DNA from: Gammaproteobacteria bacterium
GTDB taxonomy: Bacteria > Gemmatimonadota > Gemmatimonadetes > Longimicrobiales > Gaopeijiaceae
Assembly: GCA_009840525.1 (NCBI GenBank)
Contig: VXNP01000114.1
Coordinates: 1 to 33,935, forward strand
Direction of reading: 5' to 3'
Length of the DNA stretch: 33,935 nt
The translations under genes were made by a program, and so were the position numbers. Below, piece by piece: positions 10,241-29,800 of this stretch. Every line of letters begins with the position of its first letter. Positions within the stretch are counted from its first letter, which is position 1. The notes under the pieces were generated by a model, which was not told where the DNA came from, ran no database searches, and saw only the letters and a program-made list of their open reading frames with translations.

Positions 10241-12649
10241 TCAGCACCTCCAGTCGGATGCGTCGATCAGACGCTGGAGCGCGGCGATATCGCCTTGGAT
10301 CGACCGCTCGATTGCCTCGGCGCGACGGTCGGCATCCCACACCTCGATCTGCGTTTCCAACTCTCTGACCCTTCGGTCCAGATCGTATTGGTCGATCCGG
10401 CCCTCGATTCCTCGGACCTTCCCGTCGAGGTCGTACTGCTCGATCCGGGTCTCGATGTCTCGGATCCTCCCGTCGAGATCGTACCGCTCGATCTCCTGTT
10501 CGATCTCGCCCACTTGTCGGTCCAGATCGTATTCCCCGATGGCTTGGCGCGCGGATCGTAGTTCGCCCTCGGCCCGTACTATCTCGACTTGCGCGTTGGT
10601 CAATTGTCTGACTACTTCGTTCTGGGTCTCTTCCCGAAGCCGCAACGCATCCTCTACGATTTGCCGAGCGTCTTCGCCCAATGCGCGAGGCCGGACTTCA
10701 CCGGACTCTTCGGCCAGGGCTTGGGCCACCGCGTCCAGTTCTCCCAAGTCGAGTCGCTCCAGAGCCCGTGTCGTTGCCCGCAACGCCTCTTCCATTCCAG
10801 CGGATGTCATCCGGGCCATCCCTCGTCGCAGGCCTGCTATCCTCCGTTCGTGGCCCCCGATTTCGCGGCGGAGACTCGCGATGTGCCGTCCGTGAGACGC
10901 GATCTCGCGGTGCAGACTCGCGACGTGCCGTCGGTGAGACCCAATCTCGCGGCGGAGACTCGCGACGTGCCGTCGGTGAGACCCAATCTCGCGGCGGAGA
11001 CTCGCGACGTGCCGTTTGTGGGCGCCTATCTCCCGGCGCATGCTGCCTTCCTTTGCGCGCACCTCCCAAGCCTCTTGGGAGCGCGCCAACACGGTCAACA
11101 TCAGGTCGCGCCAGTCGCGAGCTTCGTCGTCGAAGGGTTGGGAGCGGCCATCGATGCTCCACTCGTATTCCAAGCCGTTTGGGCCGGAAGTGATCGCCAT
11201 CCGGTGAAGGCTTTGAGCCTGCGACTGAAGGACCAGCCGACTGCCGCGATCCATGCTCGCGACCGCCGTGCCGTCTCCGGTCATCACGATGTCGCCGCTC
11301 GTATACATGCAGAGCGACATCCCGTCTACGGATACCCGTACCGTCGTCGACTCACGGGTCTCCATTATGCCGATGAAGCGCCCCGGTTCGCACTCGATCT
11401 CCTGTGATCGGAGGGCTTCCGGCACTGCCGGGGCAGCCGCGATTGGACCCGTCGCAGGGGGCTCTGCCGACGTCCTGGTGGACGGCGACGCCGACGCTGG
11501 TGCCGGATGCCCTGGAGGCGCCGGATTCTCGACCGGACGTTCGGGGAGACGCTCGGTCTCAGCCTGCGGCGCAGGGCTTGCGGCTGGATCCATGCGGACG
11601 GGTCTGGCACAGGCTACTACCGTGCCCACCACACCGACTACCGCCAGCGCGGCATAGGTGCGGACTCTCGAAAAACGCGGCCGACGCACCTTGAGAATGG
11701 ACATGATGCGGCTCTCCAAATGCGGGTATTGTACCACTGGTAGCGAAAGGACGGGTGGACCAGGGGCGATCTCGGACGCCAGTGAGAAGAGGTGGCGGGC
11801 GTATGCTGAGGGGCGTACACCAAGGGCCAGGACTTCCTCGTCGCACGAGCGTTCCCTCGCGGCGGCCGCGAGGCGTGACGCAAGCCAGATCAGGGGATGG
11901 AACCAGTACAGCGCAACCACGGCGCCGCCCACAAGTCGCCACAGCGCATCCCGCCGACGAACATGCACCAGTTCATGGGACACGACCATTTCGCGCCGAC
12001 CGGGAGTCCAACTCTTAGCGGACGCGGGAAGTAGAATCACGTGCCTCAGCGGACCGCCCGTCATGGGTGTGGAAACTCGGGCGCTCGACAGGATTCGTAG
12101 GTCACCGGGTACGCGTGCCCGGTGCCGGAGCATATCTGTCGACCGTATCCAGTCCGGATCGCGAATCGGGGTCGCCTCCCGTACGAGCTTCCGGAAACGG
12201 AAGGCGGCAGCACCGAGGGAGACGAGCCCAGCCCCGCAGCCGAGCGCCCAGATGAGGAACACGCCAACGCCGGGTGACAGCGGGATCGAACCGTCGGCCT
12301 GAGGAGGGGACGGCAAGTATCTGGTCGGCAATGGAGCCACCGGATGTGGCGGGTGATCCGCGCTCGGAGAATTAGCCGTCGCAGACGGCGCGCTCGCTGG
12401 ATTGTCTGAGAGATGGTGTTCGATTGCCGTGGTCCGGGCGGGAAGAATGGGAAGGACCCACGCAGGGGCCAGCAGGCTCATCACCGGCAACGCGAGCAGC
12501 ACCGCGAAAGTCGTCGTCCACAACAGATGCAGGGTCTTGGCGGAGCCGCGTCTCGCAAGCCATGCAAGGACCAGGGCGACGGACAGGACCAGAGTGGCCT
12601 TCGCAACCAGACCGATGGCTCCTGTGGCGGTGAGGGGTAGGCCGGTCAT
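10241..12649 (-). CDS. M56/BlaR1-type membrane metalloprotease with repetitive coiled-coil tail
   Basis: Protein of 802 aa. The N-terminal 350 residues are a BlaR1/MecR1-like M56 domain. Transmembrane segments lie at about 10-30, 40-65, 130-155, 240-265 and 330-350. The zinc motif HELVH (in VSHELVHVRRRDALWRL) and the downstream RSCDEEVLALG give the metal ligands. M56 proteins sense an external signal and trigger cleavage of the BlaI repressor. The penicillin-binding sensor of BlaR1 is absent. Instead there is a Pro/Ala-rich linker, a small beta domain (residues about 420-510), and a long coiled coil with five 14-aa repeats (537-606) and five 16-aa repeats starting YDLD/WDAD (707-786). The ATG overlaps the BlaI stop (ATGA). 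Signal sensed: unknown. Confidence 0.9.
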   Translation of the reverse strand: MTGLPLTATGAIGLVAKATLVLSVALVLAWLARRGSAKTLHLLWTTTFAVLLALPVMSLLAPAWVLPILPARTTAIEHHLSDNPASAPSATANSPSADHPPHPVAPLPTRYLPSPPQADGSIPLSPGVGVFLIWALGCGAGLVSLGAAAFRFRKLVREATPIRDPDWIRSTDMLRHRARVPGDLRILSSARVSTPMTGGPLRHVILLPASAKSWTPGRREMVVSHELVHVRRRDALWRLVGGAVVALYWFHPLIWLASRLAAAARERSCDEEVLALGVRPSAYARHLFSLASEIAPGPPVLSLPVVQYPHLESRIMSILKVRRPRFSRVRTYAALAVVGVVGTVVACARPVRMDPAASPAPQAETERLPERPVENPAPPGHPAPASASPSTRTSAEPPATGPIAAAPAVPEALRSQEIECEPGRFIGIMETRESTTVRVSVDGMSLCMYTSGDIVMTGDGTAVASMDRGSRLVLQSQAQSLHRMAITSGPNGLEYEWSIDGRSQPFDDEARDWRDLMLTVLARSQEAWEVRAKEGSMRREIGAHKRHVASLRREIGSHRRHVASLRREIGSHRRHVASLHREIASHGRHIASLRREIGGHERRIAGLRRGMARMTSAGMEEALRATTRALERLDLGELDAVAQALAEESGEVRPRALGEDARQIVEDALRLREETQNEVVRQLTNAQVEIVRAEGELRSARQAIGEYDLDRQVGEIEQEIERYDLDGRIRDIETRIEQYDLDGKVRGIEGRIDQYDLDRRVRELETQIEVWDADRRAEAIERSIQGDIAALQRLIDASDWRC
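10292..10531 (-). repeat. Tandem 48-bp coding repeats (YDLD array)
   Basis: Five consecutive 16-residue units in the M56 protein: YDLDRQVGEIEQEIER, YDLDGRIRDIETRIEQ, YDLDGKVRGIEGRIDQ, YDLDRRVRELETQIEV and WDADRRAEAIERSIQG. A period of 16 does not match simple heptads, so the segment may form a right-handed or kinked coil. DNA copies are diverged enough to be stable. Confidence 0.85.
10832..11041 (-). repeat. Tandem 42-bp coding repeats (HRRHVASLRREIGS array)
   Basis: Five 14-residue units (two heptads each) in the M56 protein, consensus LRREIGSHRRHVAS. The two central units are almost identical in DNA (about 10938-11021), so the copy number could change by slippage or recombination without breaking the frame. 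The unit is rich in Arg and His, giving a strongly basic coiled coil. Confidence 0.85.
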
Positions 12650-13029
12650 CGTCCGCCCTCCTCGGCTTCATCGATCATCCTCTTGATACGCTGCCGCTCG
12701 CCTGGAGTAAGGTCGCCTTCGCCGAGTTCGAGGAGCATGGCGACCGCGCCCTCGACACTGCCTCCGAAGAACGTCCGCAGGACGCGGTGCATTGCGGAGC
12801 GTCGCGCCCGCCCGACGGGCATCGTCGGAGAGTAGACGTAGCGGTGACCTTCCGGCCTCCGTTCCAGATGTCGCTTGGTGACGAGGATCCGCAGGATCGA
12901 CCGGACGGCCGAATCGGTCGGTGGGTCGGCCAGGCGCTCCCTTATCTGGGCCGCTGTCGCGCCACCCAACTCGTACAGGACATCCATTACATCGCGTTCG
13001 CGTCTGCTCAGCGGCGGAAGTTGGCTCAC
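12646..13029 (-). CDS. BlaI/MecI/CopY-family repressor
   Basis: Protein of 127 aa with a GTG start; a GGAG motif lies about 10 bases upstream. Length and sequence fit the Penicillinase_R family: an N-terminal winged helix (LSRRERDVMDVLYELGGATA, recognition helix around TDSAVRSILRILVTK, wing RRPEGHRYVYSP) and a C-terminal dimerisation helix (FFGGSVEGAVAMLLELG). The Arg-rich stretch between them is where M56 proteases cut BlaI homologues. The last bases overlap the M56 gene (ATGA). It probably represses its own operon through the palindrome at 13112-13127. Confidence 0.92.
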   Translation of the reverse strand: MSQLPPLSRRERDVMDVLYELGGATAAQIRERLADPPTDSAVRSILRILVTKRHLERRPEGHRYVYSPTMPVGRARRSAMHRVLRTFFGGSVEGAVAMLLELGEGDLTPGERQRIKRMIDEAEEGGR

Positions 13030-13096: not shown

Positions 13097-13127
13097 ATCG
13101 TAACGCAAAAGTGTTGAGAACTCAACA
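13097..13127 (-). promoter_or_regulatory. Promoter with overlapping palindromic operator for the BlaI operon
   Basis: The perfect dyad TGTTGAG-AA-CTCAACA (13112-13127) lies upstream of the repressor gene. On the minus strand its inner part supplies a -35 box TTGAGT (13125-13120), followed by a 17-bp spacer and a -10 box TACGAT (13102-13097). A dimeric repressor on the dyad would cover the -35 box, as in BlaI/MecI systems. Transcription would start about 60 bases before the GTG. The operator differs from the classical TACA-type BlaI box, so specificity is inferred. Confidence 0.65.
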
Positions 13128-26814: not shown

Positions 26815-29800
26815 TCCGTAGTGAAGTCCTTTCGGACCACCTGCGAGTATTCAAGTTCGATCTCTTCCCAGAGACTCGGTAGACCGAGCGCGCCCAAGAG
26901 CATCTTGTCGGATTGGTCGGTGATGTCGCGGCAGCGGGCAAGGTTGTAGTTGCCGATCAGCTTTCCGGCGTTCTGGTTGTAGATCGTGTTCTCCTCCATG
27001 GCCGCACTGAGCGCCGGCAACAAAGACGCCACCGCCCGTTGCACCGGTGGACTCAGCTGTGCCGGGCCGAGTGGCGCACGTTGGAAGTGGCCCTTGGTCA
27101 AGTGAAAGCTATCGCCGACCGCGACCCACCAGAGAAAGAGCAATCTGCCGTTCAGCAGAACCATGGAGGTGTTGCGGAGCCCTTCGTCGGCGAAACGGAT
27201 CGTTCCGTATTGTGTCTGCTCAAGAGCCTCTCCATCTCTACCCGTGACCGGTGGCTTGGCCACACAGAAGGTGAGCCAATTGTACCCTATCTGGCTGAAG
27301 TGAAGCTCGTGAGCGCCGAAGGACTTGGCCAAGTCTTGACGGAAGCGGTAGCTGTCCCCCAAGAGGGTCTCCAAGGCGTGGAGAAGCCGACTTGTTCCCA
27401 CCTTCGGGATGAGTCCTTCCCACCGATCCGGAGAGTACTTCAGGTAGGAGATCTGCGTGAACAGCGTCGACCGTTCTTCCTTGTCGAACCACCGGTGCAG
27501 GCGAGTCGCGTAGGTGGATGCCGCTGATCGGTCGCCGTCGCCCTGGACGCAACCCAGGAAGATCGTGTTTCGGATCTGTTCGCCGCCGCTGAACAGCTTG
27601 GAGGGGCGTCTGTCGTACGAGGAGAACCATGCGGCGGCGCAGCGCGCGTAGAGCAAATCGCGAAGCGGCCGAAACTGGCCTCCGAAAGTCAAGCTCAGGG
27701 GCACGATCATACCGACCCGGCCACGTGAGCGCGTGACGGCAACGCTCCGCTCCACCACCGTCGCGTAGACATCCGGGCACGACGCTGTCGCGAAATCGGC
27801 AGAGAGCGCATACCGCTTCCGCACCTTCGTCATACCGATATAGGGCGGATTCCCGACGACCACGTCGAATCCGCCTCGACCCTCCACGATCCCGAAGAAC
27901 TCGGCGCACCAGTGGAAGGGCTGGTGACTGGCCCGCCATTCGCCGAACCGTCGCGGCTTGTCCAGCGATGCCAAGTGCCGGTCGAGTTCGGCACGGAGTT
28001 CCGTCGTCCGACGCCGAACCTCGCGCTTGGCGCTGCGGATGGCGGCAGCGTCCGCGTCCGTCTCGGTCTGCAAGCGCTGAAAGCGGGCGAACGCGGTGGC
28101 GGCGCGCTTCGACCTTCTCTTGATGTCCGGCAGCGCCATTTCCGTGACCAAGTCGCCTTGCAGAGCCTCGCGGATGTCCTTCACCGAGGAGAAGCCCACA
28201 AGCGCGTTGCCTGGCCGGATATTGAAATCGATGTCGGGAAGCGGTTCGATCTGCTCGGGCGAGTCGAGTTGGGCCACGAGCTTGAGAAAGAGGCGCAGTT
28301 TGCATATCTCCGTCGCCTCTTTCATGATGTCCACCCCGTACAGGTTGTTGAGTACGATGGACTTGAGGATGAAGTAGCGTTCGCTGGGGTGCTGGGCCAA
28401 CTCCGCGAGCGTCCCGTCGGCGTCCGCGGGACGCAGATCCCGCATGCGGGCAAGACAGGCGGCGTAGACGGGTTCGAGGACCTTCAGGGCCGCGAACAGG
28501 AAGGCGCCGGACCCGCAGGTCGGATCGAGAATCGAGATGTTGGTGGCCGCCCGCCAGATTGCCAAGACAAGCTCGGGCTCGTCGGCGCGCCCAACGGCAT
28601 CGAGAATCAGCCGCTTGGCGTCCAGATTCAGCGTTACGAGGTCGTTGGAATCGCGAATGTCGCCAGCGGCCAGCTTCTTGCGCGTTTCGACGTAGCGCTC
28701 GCGTCGGGCGACCACCTGTCGCCAAGTCTCGCGAGGATGTGCGTATTCCAGCGGTGGACCGCCCTTGGACGCGGCGGGCCGATCCCAGTCAGTCCGGTTG
28801 GCGGGATCGCCGATCTCGGCGGCGACCTCCGGCGGAAGCTCAAGCGGCGGATCGACTCGGACCGGACTCTCGATGTCGCGGGCATCCCAAGCGAATCCGT
28901 GGCCAACCGGAGGGCGAATGTACCGATCCGGGTCTTGTTTGAGCCATCCGTAGACAGTATATCTGTCTGTCTGTCTGTCTGTCTGTCTGTCACCGCCATG
29001 TCCAGCAATCGCGGAATGATGGTGTTTTCCGCCATGTAGCCGGTGATGTCCTCCTTGGTGTAGTAGGCTCCCTTCTCCTTCTGGTTGATCGACTTCTCGA
29101 AGATGTGTCCCAGCACGTCCGGGTTGATCTCGTTGTCCTTGGCGTGGGGCCGCTCGTCAAGGTGCCATGAGTATCGGTCGAAGAAGCTGAAGAGCCGGGC
29201 GAAGGCCGCGTCGGGGATGCGGATGTCGGGGTTGTCGCGCTCCAGATCGTGGACATCGAAGATCCCGCCATTCAGGAAGGGCACGTCGCCGAGCAGGGCG
29301 GAAAGCTCCGGGGCGCGCTCGGACTCGGGCGTGCCCAGCCCCTCGTGAAACAGCCGCCGCAGGAATGAGCGGTAGAAGTCGTGGAAGCGGTCGGGACCGC
29401 GGGCCTTGCGCACGCGGTCGAGGCGGGCGCGGAGGTAGTTCGGGTCGCCGTCCAGGAAGCCTCGCTTCTGGATGAAGTAGATGAACATGAGCCGGTTCAG
29501 CATCAGCGATGCGTACCAGTCCACGGCACCGGACCGGTCGATACCGGTGATGAGCCTCTGGAAGGCGTTGAGTTCCTCCTGGTAGTGCTCGTAGAACCTC
29601 TTCGTGATCTTCTCGGCGTTGAGCGCGCTCCTGACCCGATCCGCGACGAGCGAAATGGTGAGGCTCTCCTCCTCGTCCAGTCCGAATGCGAGGTTCCGGA
29701 GGCGCTGGAGGACGGGTTCGCCGGTCTGTCCGGCCCGGAACGTGTATTCCCTGCTGGCGTCGGGCTTGCCCTGTTCTCGCCGAACCCAGTGCCACACCTG

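Follow-up and report, generated by a model that had tools for sequence, protein, structure and literature searches.

A BlaR1-type M56 protease in this bacterium carries, beyond its last predicted membrane helix, a small β domain followed by two arrays of different helical repeats, and it is encoded immediately after a BlaI-type repressor gene. The tail is conserved among relatives, and the unit numbers of its two arrays co-vary. We think it probable that the protein is a receptor-protease in which the β domain is joined by an intramolecular antiparallel coiled-coil hairpin, with the arm formed by the first array packed on the arm formed by the second.

M56/BlaI pairs are best known from β-lactam resistance, proteases of this kind being the penicillin sensors of staphylococci; to our knowledge, many of the pairs are without a penicillin sensor, and for few of those is the signal known. 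The protein described here adds to the known non-β-lactam BlaR1-family proteases a case in which the proposed sensor is a two-array helical tail with arrays roughly matched in number. The literature searched, in which subscription journals were thinly covered, yielded no description of a coiled-coil tail on an M56 protein. If the predicted hairpin is real, the tail would be an example from nature of unlike repeats that stay matched in number inside one chain.

An M56 protease with two helical arrays

The window, by which we mean the whole stretch of 33,935 nucleotides that was analysed, contains the following features of the protease gene:

10241–12649, minus strand: M56 (BlaR1-type) protease with coiled-coil tail, 802 amino acids (open reading frame)
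11696–12607, minus strand: M56 protease domain, residues 15–318 (PF05569; HELVH at residues 225–229, CDEE at 269–272)
11111–11419, minus strand: small β domain, about residues 411–513 (invariant C420 and C447, WSIDGRxxPFDDEARxW motif)
10811–11062, minus strand: array 1 (proposed arm A), six 14-residue units, residues 530–613 (in-phase units)
10532–10810, minus strand: middle segment of 93 residues, 614–706, with the proposed hairpin tip near residue 651 (unit scan and model)
10292–10531, minus strand: array 2 (proposed arm B), five 16-residue units, residues 707–786 (modelled helix interrupted at every YD or WD, on the Asp)

Residues 15–318 match the Peptidase_M56 family (PF05569) with an E value of 2.5e-32 and 112.7 bits (cut-off 31). 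Across seven aligned sequences H225, E226, H229 and E271 are invariant, the last being the downstream Glu of the CDEE motif, which we take to be the acidic zinc ligand of this HExxH protease. The NCBIfam model blaR1_generic reaches 72.6 bits against a cut-off of 400, with a best stretch that covers residues 130–276 only, and no Pfam match to a penicillin-binding or class D β-lactamase-like sensor was found in the 802-residue protein; the protein is therefore an M56 member but not a BlaR1 β-lactam sensor. Nor is there any ATPase family among its Pfam matches that would indicate the ATPase heads of SMC or Rad50 proteins; NCBIfam SMC models reach some 20 bits, where their cut-offs demand 567 and 729, and are confined to the tail. 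A full-length AlphaFold2 model, poor over the protease part, places helices at residues 8–33, 37–60, 126–157 and 327–348, with low confidence in that region.

After the last of these predicted membrane helices (327–348) come, in order, a Pro/Ala-rich linker, the β domain, the 14-mers, the middle segment, the 16-mers and a 16-residue end. The β domain, which matched no Pfam family, has its strands between residues 429 and 504 in an AlphaFold2 model of residues 411–802, and the invariance of C420 and C447 holds across the same seven aligned sequences. A preliminary description, made from the sequence, had read the protein as a BlaR1-type M56 protease whose sensor is exchanged for a β domain and coiled-coil repeats, and the PF05569 match, the lack of a penicillin-binding domain and the strands and helices of the AlphaFold2 models all agree with that reading. 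It had also placed the 14- and 16-residue repeats after the β domain; both arrays are present, but the tail does not consist of the two arrays only, as the 93-residue middle segment separates them.

Array 1 comprises six 14-mers in phase, the first one degenerate, and the last of the five 16-mers of array 2 is a WDADRR variant. Tandem Repeats Finder reports a 42-bp array at 10856–11015 (3.8 copies, 91% matches) and a 48-bp array at 10363–10493 (2.7 copies, 80% matches). The two nearly identical 42-bp units that had been noticed earlier are units 2 and 3 of array 1, the most alike pair, with 95% DNA identity. The sequence of a basic and then an acidic array likewise stands, with a net charge of +16 for array 1 and −11 for array 2 through the C terminus. 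At the cut-off used, the weight matrices, whose seeds were drawn from these same proteins, found 0.32 14-mers and 0.18 16-mers per shuffled protein. In other orthologues the middle segment varies from 1 to 147 residues, with overlap of the scored units in two short tails; in G004a the two arrays almost adjoin, with one residue between them. Elsewhere in the window, a tetranucleotide tract of 7.5 perfect TCTG copies (28962–28991) could be prone to slippage.

Conservation and copy number of the tail

Similar tails in other M56 proteins, which the preliminary description had proposed looking for, are found. Within the family, 29 genomes out of 121 have a match to a profile of the β domain plus tail (E ≤ 1e-15); the order gives 32 among 154, and a sample drawn across the phylum 35 among 395, these three genome sets overlapping. 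Proteins of close relatives (L004–L008), from Gemmatimonadetes genome bins that bear names, share 65–83% identity with the window protein in the best segment, and L009 shares 33%; in families f2, f3 and f7 the unit sequences differ much and the 16-residue spacing is retained. The tail is conserved at the protein level in orthologues, contrary to one outcome named in advance as telling against the earlier reading, and the family-library and literature searches returned no identical tail with a known function. The part of the profile matches that was inspected consists of M56 tails, with the exception of one 367-residue protein (L178, G060:C1). This protein is probably membrane-anchored, has long LRGEVGx heptad repeats and is not an M56 protein; we judged it a composition match.

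Rates of substitution against three orthologues differ along the protein. The dN/dS ratio is 0.29–0.34 in the M56 domain, 0.50–1.13 in the linker before the β domain, 0.35–0.70 in the β domain, 0.26–0.38 in array 1, 0.24–0.30 in the middle segment and 0.26–0.77 in array 2, where two of the three comparisons gave 0.68–0.77. Array 1 and the middle segment are thus constrained like the protease, and array 2 less clearly so. The higher values in array 2 are what would be expected were the tail a passive spacer, made of helical repeats that change number by recombination under weak constraint and leave sensing to the β domain. Such a spacer would also accord with the variation of copy number between genomes, including a difference in array 1 within one close pair (G294 and G356), and with the occurrence, seen by eye, of the β-domain motif in M56 proteins with other tails. 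We nevertheless hold it to be quite improbable: array 1 has low dN/dS, the 16-residue spacing persists across families with little shared unit sequence, and the copy numbers of the two arrays co-vary.

That tail length could vary had been foreseen, and unit counts do differ between genomes. In-phase counts from 34 tails at the first automatic cut-off range from 2 to 9 14-mers and from 1 to 8 16-mers, and over all 34 tails the counts of the two arrays are related with rho = 0.26 (p = 0.14). Seven L009-type tails, with a long extra C-terminal part or a single scored 16-mer, were left out of the co-variation analysis. For the 27 orthologues analysed, curated counts (2–9 and 2–8) gave rho = 0.77 and, with a tree built from the region that precedes the tail, an independent-contrast r of 0.69 (p = 6e-5). 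When units were counted automatically, 16 pairs of cut-offs gave contrast r values of 0.50–0.63 (p = 0.0004–0.008). With G356 removed, the automatic counts gave r = 0.61–0.81; with G356, G045 and G051 all removed, the contrast r fell to 0.33–0.67 and was non-significant at many cut-offs. The co-variation is therefore present in the 27-orthologue set but leans on long-array genomes.

The curated counts were set by hand, starting from the in-phase scan: G006, G008a and G004a were each credited with a degenerate first unit, 16-mers that scored weakly at the front of the array were omitted, and G200 and G193 were fixed at 2 and 2. Never counted were G018 (a run of N inside array 1), L008/L143 of G053 (truncated at a contig end), G010 (judged nearly the same as G004), the divergent tails of G085, G096, G011, G095, G057, G060, G336, G209 and G190, and further copies in G040, G053, G193 and G200. 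Adjacent units with 98% DNA identity occur in both arrays of G051, and in array 1 only of G294. The clearest counterexample to matched copy numbers is the pair G294 and G356, which are 94% identical over the 1.5 kb before the arrays: scans of array 1 gave 5 versus 3 units, and array 2 is the same in both. Assembly collapse of near-identical repeats could be the cause of this difference.

Predicted pairing of the arrays

We folded residues 411–802 with AlphaFold2 from a seven-sequence alignment. The model (mean pLDDT 80, pTM 0.55) has two long helices, 508–631 and 659–801, with ten-residue blocks mostly at pLDDT 86–97 over both arrays. The second helix is broken at residues 708, 724, 740, 756 and 772, in each case the Asp after the Tyr or Trp of a unit. 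The full-length run gave both helices again, with breaks within one residue of these positions.

In Foldseek and VIA-align searches the best matches of the model are mostly antiparallel hairpins, among them the Smc arm 5xg2 (Z 11.0), chemoreceptors, PI3K iSH2 (4.9 Å over 147 residues) and Cg1735 (5.0 Å over 191); a Z near 11 is within the chance range for helical models. Many of the structural alignments are centred near model residue 240, that is, residue 650 of the window protein, which would set array 1 opposite residues 689–772, about four of the five 16-mers. When hairpin tips were placed in 33 tails by helix propensity, the mismatch between arms was no better than chance (44 versus 37 residues), and the tip agreed with the model in the window's genome (G000) and G007 alone. 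By sequence, the tail profile matches both sc-apCC, presumably designed antiparallel single-chain coils as the name implies, and trimeric phage needles and fibres, and so does not decide the pairing.

Charge patterns bear on the pairing through the registers that we assigned (14-mer, a at positions 5 and 12, d at 8 and 1; 16-mer, a at 7 and 14, d at 10 and 1). The score of e and g charges is attractive for antiparallel pairing of arms A and B in all nine clades, and for their parallel pairing in two of the nine. Parallel B–B pairing is favourable in nine of nine; parallel A–A pairing is repulsive in two and neutral in one. The charges fit a hairpin, and they are also compatible with hairpins joined into dimers by way of array 2. 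In the same register the core spacing of the 16-residue period is 3, 4, 3, 6, a two-residue insertion into the heptad pattern.

The tail can be read in another way, in which two or three copies of it assemble in parallel into an extended homo-oligomeric stalk and array 2 is an α/β coiled coil, each 16-mer being a heptad plus a nonad with one Y-D-L β-layer. The nonad register a-b-c-b1-b2-b3-e-f-g (PMC4786415) accommodates IEQ-YDL-DGK, and in both AlphaFold2 models the helix is interrupted at b2 or the neighbouring position. The uniformly favourable B–B charges, the sequence matches of the tail profile to trimeric needles and fibres, and the dimeric state of BlaR1 itself, described in passages of PMC9834060, also speak for a stalk. 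However, b2 prefers small hydrophobic residues, yet this position is Asp in 106 of 135 distinct 16-mers; parallel A–A pairing is not favourable in the three clades noted above; and a stalk gives no reason for the two arrays to be matched in unit number. We regard it as rather unlikely. The AlphaFold2 models, the structural matches, the charges and the co-variation are best read as pointing to intramolecular interaction of the basic array with the acidic one, one of the two options that the preliminary description had raised, and thus to a predicted hairpin.

Two ligand-binding readings of the repeats were also considered. Calcium-binding EF-like loops in the 16-mer (YDLDGK) were rejected: such loops usually begin with Asp, this usual first Asp is missing, and the Asp residues are not kept in L009-type tails. 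For the 14-mers, His is the commonest residue at position 1, a core d position (85 of 134 distinct units), so that His-rich units might bind metal or sense pH, and a commentary (PMC7896320) has the BlaR1-family protease PetP as proposed to be copper-dependent. But the remaining units carry Ile, Leu, Val, Tyr or Ala at position 1, with Ala in most units of G025, and we consider a metal or pH function extremely improbable.

The operon and its relation to known systems

Three further features surround the protease gene:

12646–13029, minus strand: BlaI-type repressor (Penicillinase_R; PF03965, E 2.4e-22, 79.9 bits, cut-off 22.6)
13112–13127, no strand assigned: perfect palindrome TGTTGAGAACTCAACA, putative operator for the repressor, 98 bases upstream of that gene's start codon
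9017–10237, minus strand: third gene, probable 6-bladed β-propeller and probable lipoprotein (WAALVGC by eye; DUF5128 at E 0.00039, below its cut-off)

The repressor gene lies upstream of the protease, with a 4-base overlap at the protease start codon. All five orthologous neighbour genes that were scanned match PF03965. Among 58 loci with an M56 match, duplicates counted, 55 have a BlaI match ahead of the protease, and contig ends truncate the remaining three. In one locus (L140, G049) the neighbouring BlaI gene matches in two pieces in different frames, which may reflect a frameshift or an assembly error. Two tandem M56 genes follow a single BlaI gene in G200 and G193, the second of them (L168 and L169, respectively) with a very short two-array tail.

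The palindrome TGTTGAGAACTCAACA has a chance expectation of 0.06 such sites in the window at two or fewer mismatches. When 35 loci were examined, counting the window, 14 had a form of it ahead of the BlaI gene, for the most part between −95 and −99 and, in G025 and G387, at −72 to −74; the genome holds one exact site. This placement before the repressor gene, with its recurrence in relatives and single exact copy, suggests that the repressor regulates the three-gene operon to which it belongs, perhaps exclusively, with TGTTGAGAACTCAACA as the candidate operator. A wider regulon was considered and rejected, as sites with one or two mismatches elsewhere in the genome are no commoner than those of a reversed-pattern control.

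Beyond the window, 14 different loci of relatives have the propeller gene after the protease, at 68–86% identity (clades g1a, g1c and f7, and G018). In other clades it is absent or weakly similar, and G008b has a Peripla_BP_6 protein next. Its product is the only candidate periplasmic partner to come from the data, and it is not present throughout.

From these elements we propose the following course of signalling. The M56 domain, cytoplasmic as its family would imply, would on activation cleave the BlaI-type repressor encoded just upstream, by analogy with BlaR1. Outside the membrane, a disulphide-capable β domain would bear a long hairpin of antiparallel coiled coil. In it the basic 14-mers would run outward, the middle segment would contain the turn, and the acidic 16-mers (14+2 residues, with the helix interrupted at each YD) would return alongside array 1. 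With unit numbers roughly matched between the arms, such a stalk could lengthen or shorten. Binding or loss of a periplasmic partner by the hairpin would then be passed to the β domain, the last membrane helix and the protease. The mechanical or envelope-stress sensing that the preliminary description had suggested is conceivable as the role of the tail. In a further reading, the tail is an adjustable periplasmic ruler whose 14 and 14+2 units are paired one to one, both arms gaining and losing units together; the tip would reach a set distance, for example to the cell wall or outer membrane, and contact at the tip would switch the protease. We consider such a ruler distinctly unlikely. A clade that combines a repeat-built, re-sizable helical hairpin sensor with a one-copy candidate operator would make input and output testable in a short operon.

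BlaR1 and MecR1, with BlaI and MecI, resemble this system in the M56 domain, the HExxH motif, the adjoining BlaI-family repressor gene and a C-terminal part after the last membrane helix. Unlike them, the window protein is without a penicillin-binding domain and has the β domain and two-array helical tail in that place. BlaR1 is a domain-swapped dimer in which what happens at the external sensor changes the membrane protease, and that protease cuts BlaI directly (PMC9834060). PetP and PetR of cyanobacteria, as described in part of PMC7896320, are also a BlaR1-family protease and a neighbouring BlaI-family regulator that do not serve a β-lactam response and are said to respond to copper; the likeness to the window protein is one of description.

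Other M56 proteins of the same genome and order share the M56 domain, and a BlaI match precedes L102–L105, those examined for it. Their tails differ: the genome's two other M56 proteins have four TonB_C domains (L002, G000:C7) and a TonB-dependent receptor plug (L003, G000:C108), and further ones have a DUF4097 toastrack (L082) or HEAT repeats (L083/L103). In relatives, helical repeats that Pfam does not name, SDxExR-type and SDHYxAE, occur among the M56 tails of L081/L104, L102 and L105, and in some proteins of this set, L082 and L083/L103 included, a β-domain-like motif stands before or after the repeats.

The predicted arrangement of two long helices is like that of Smc arms, of chemoreceptor signalling domains and of the peptidoglycan hydrolases RipA and Cg1735, although no shared family is shown with these hairpins and the Z scores lie in the range of common helical arrangements. 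In α/β coiled coils, as a section of PMC4786415 describes them, two residues are added to a heptad background at regular spacing, as in the 16-mers here; unlike those, the 16-mers of the window put Asp at the centre of the would-be β-layer.
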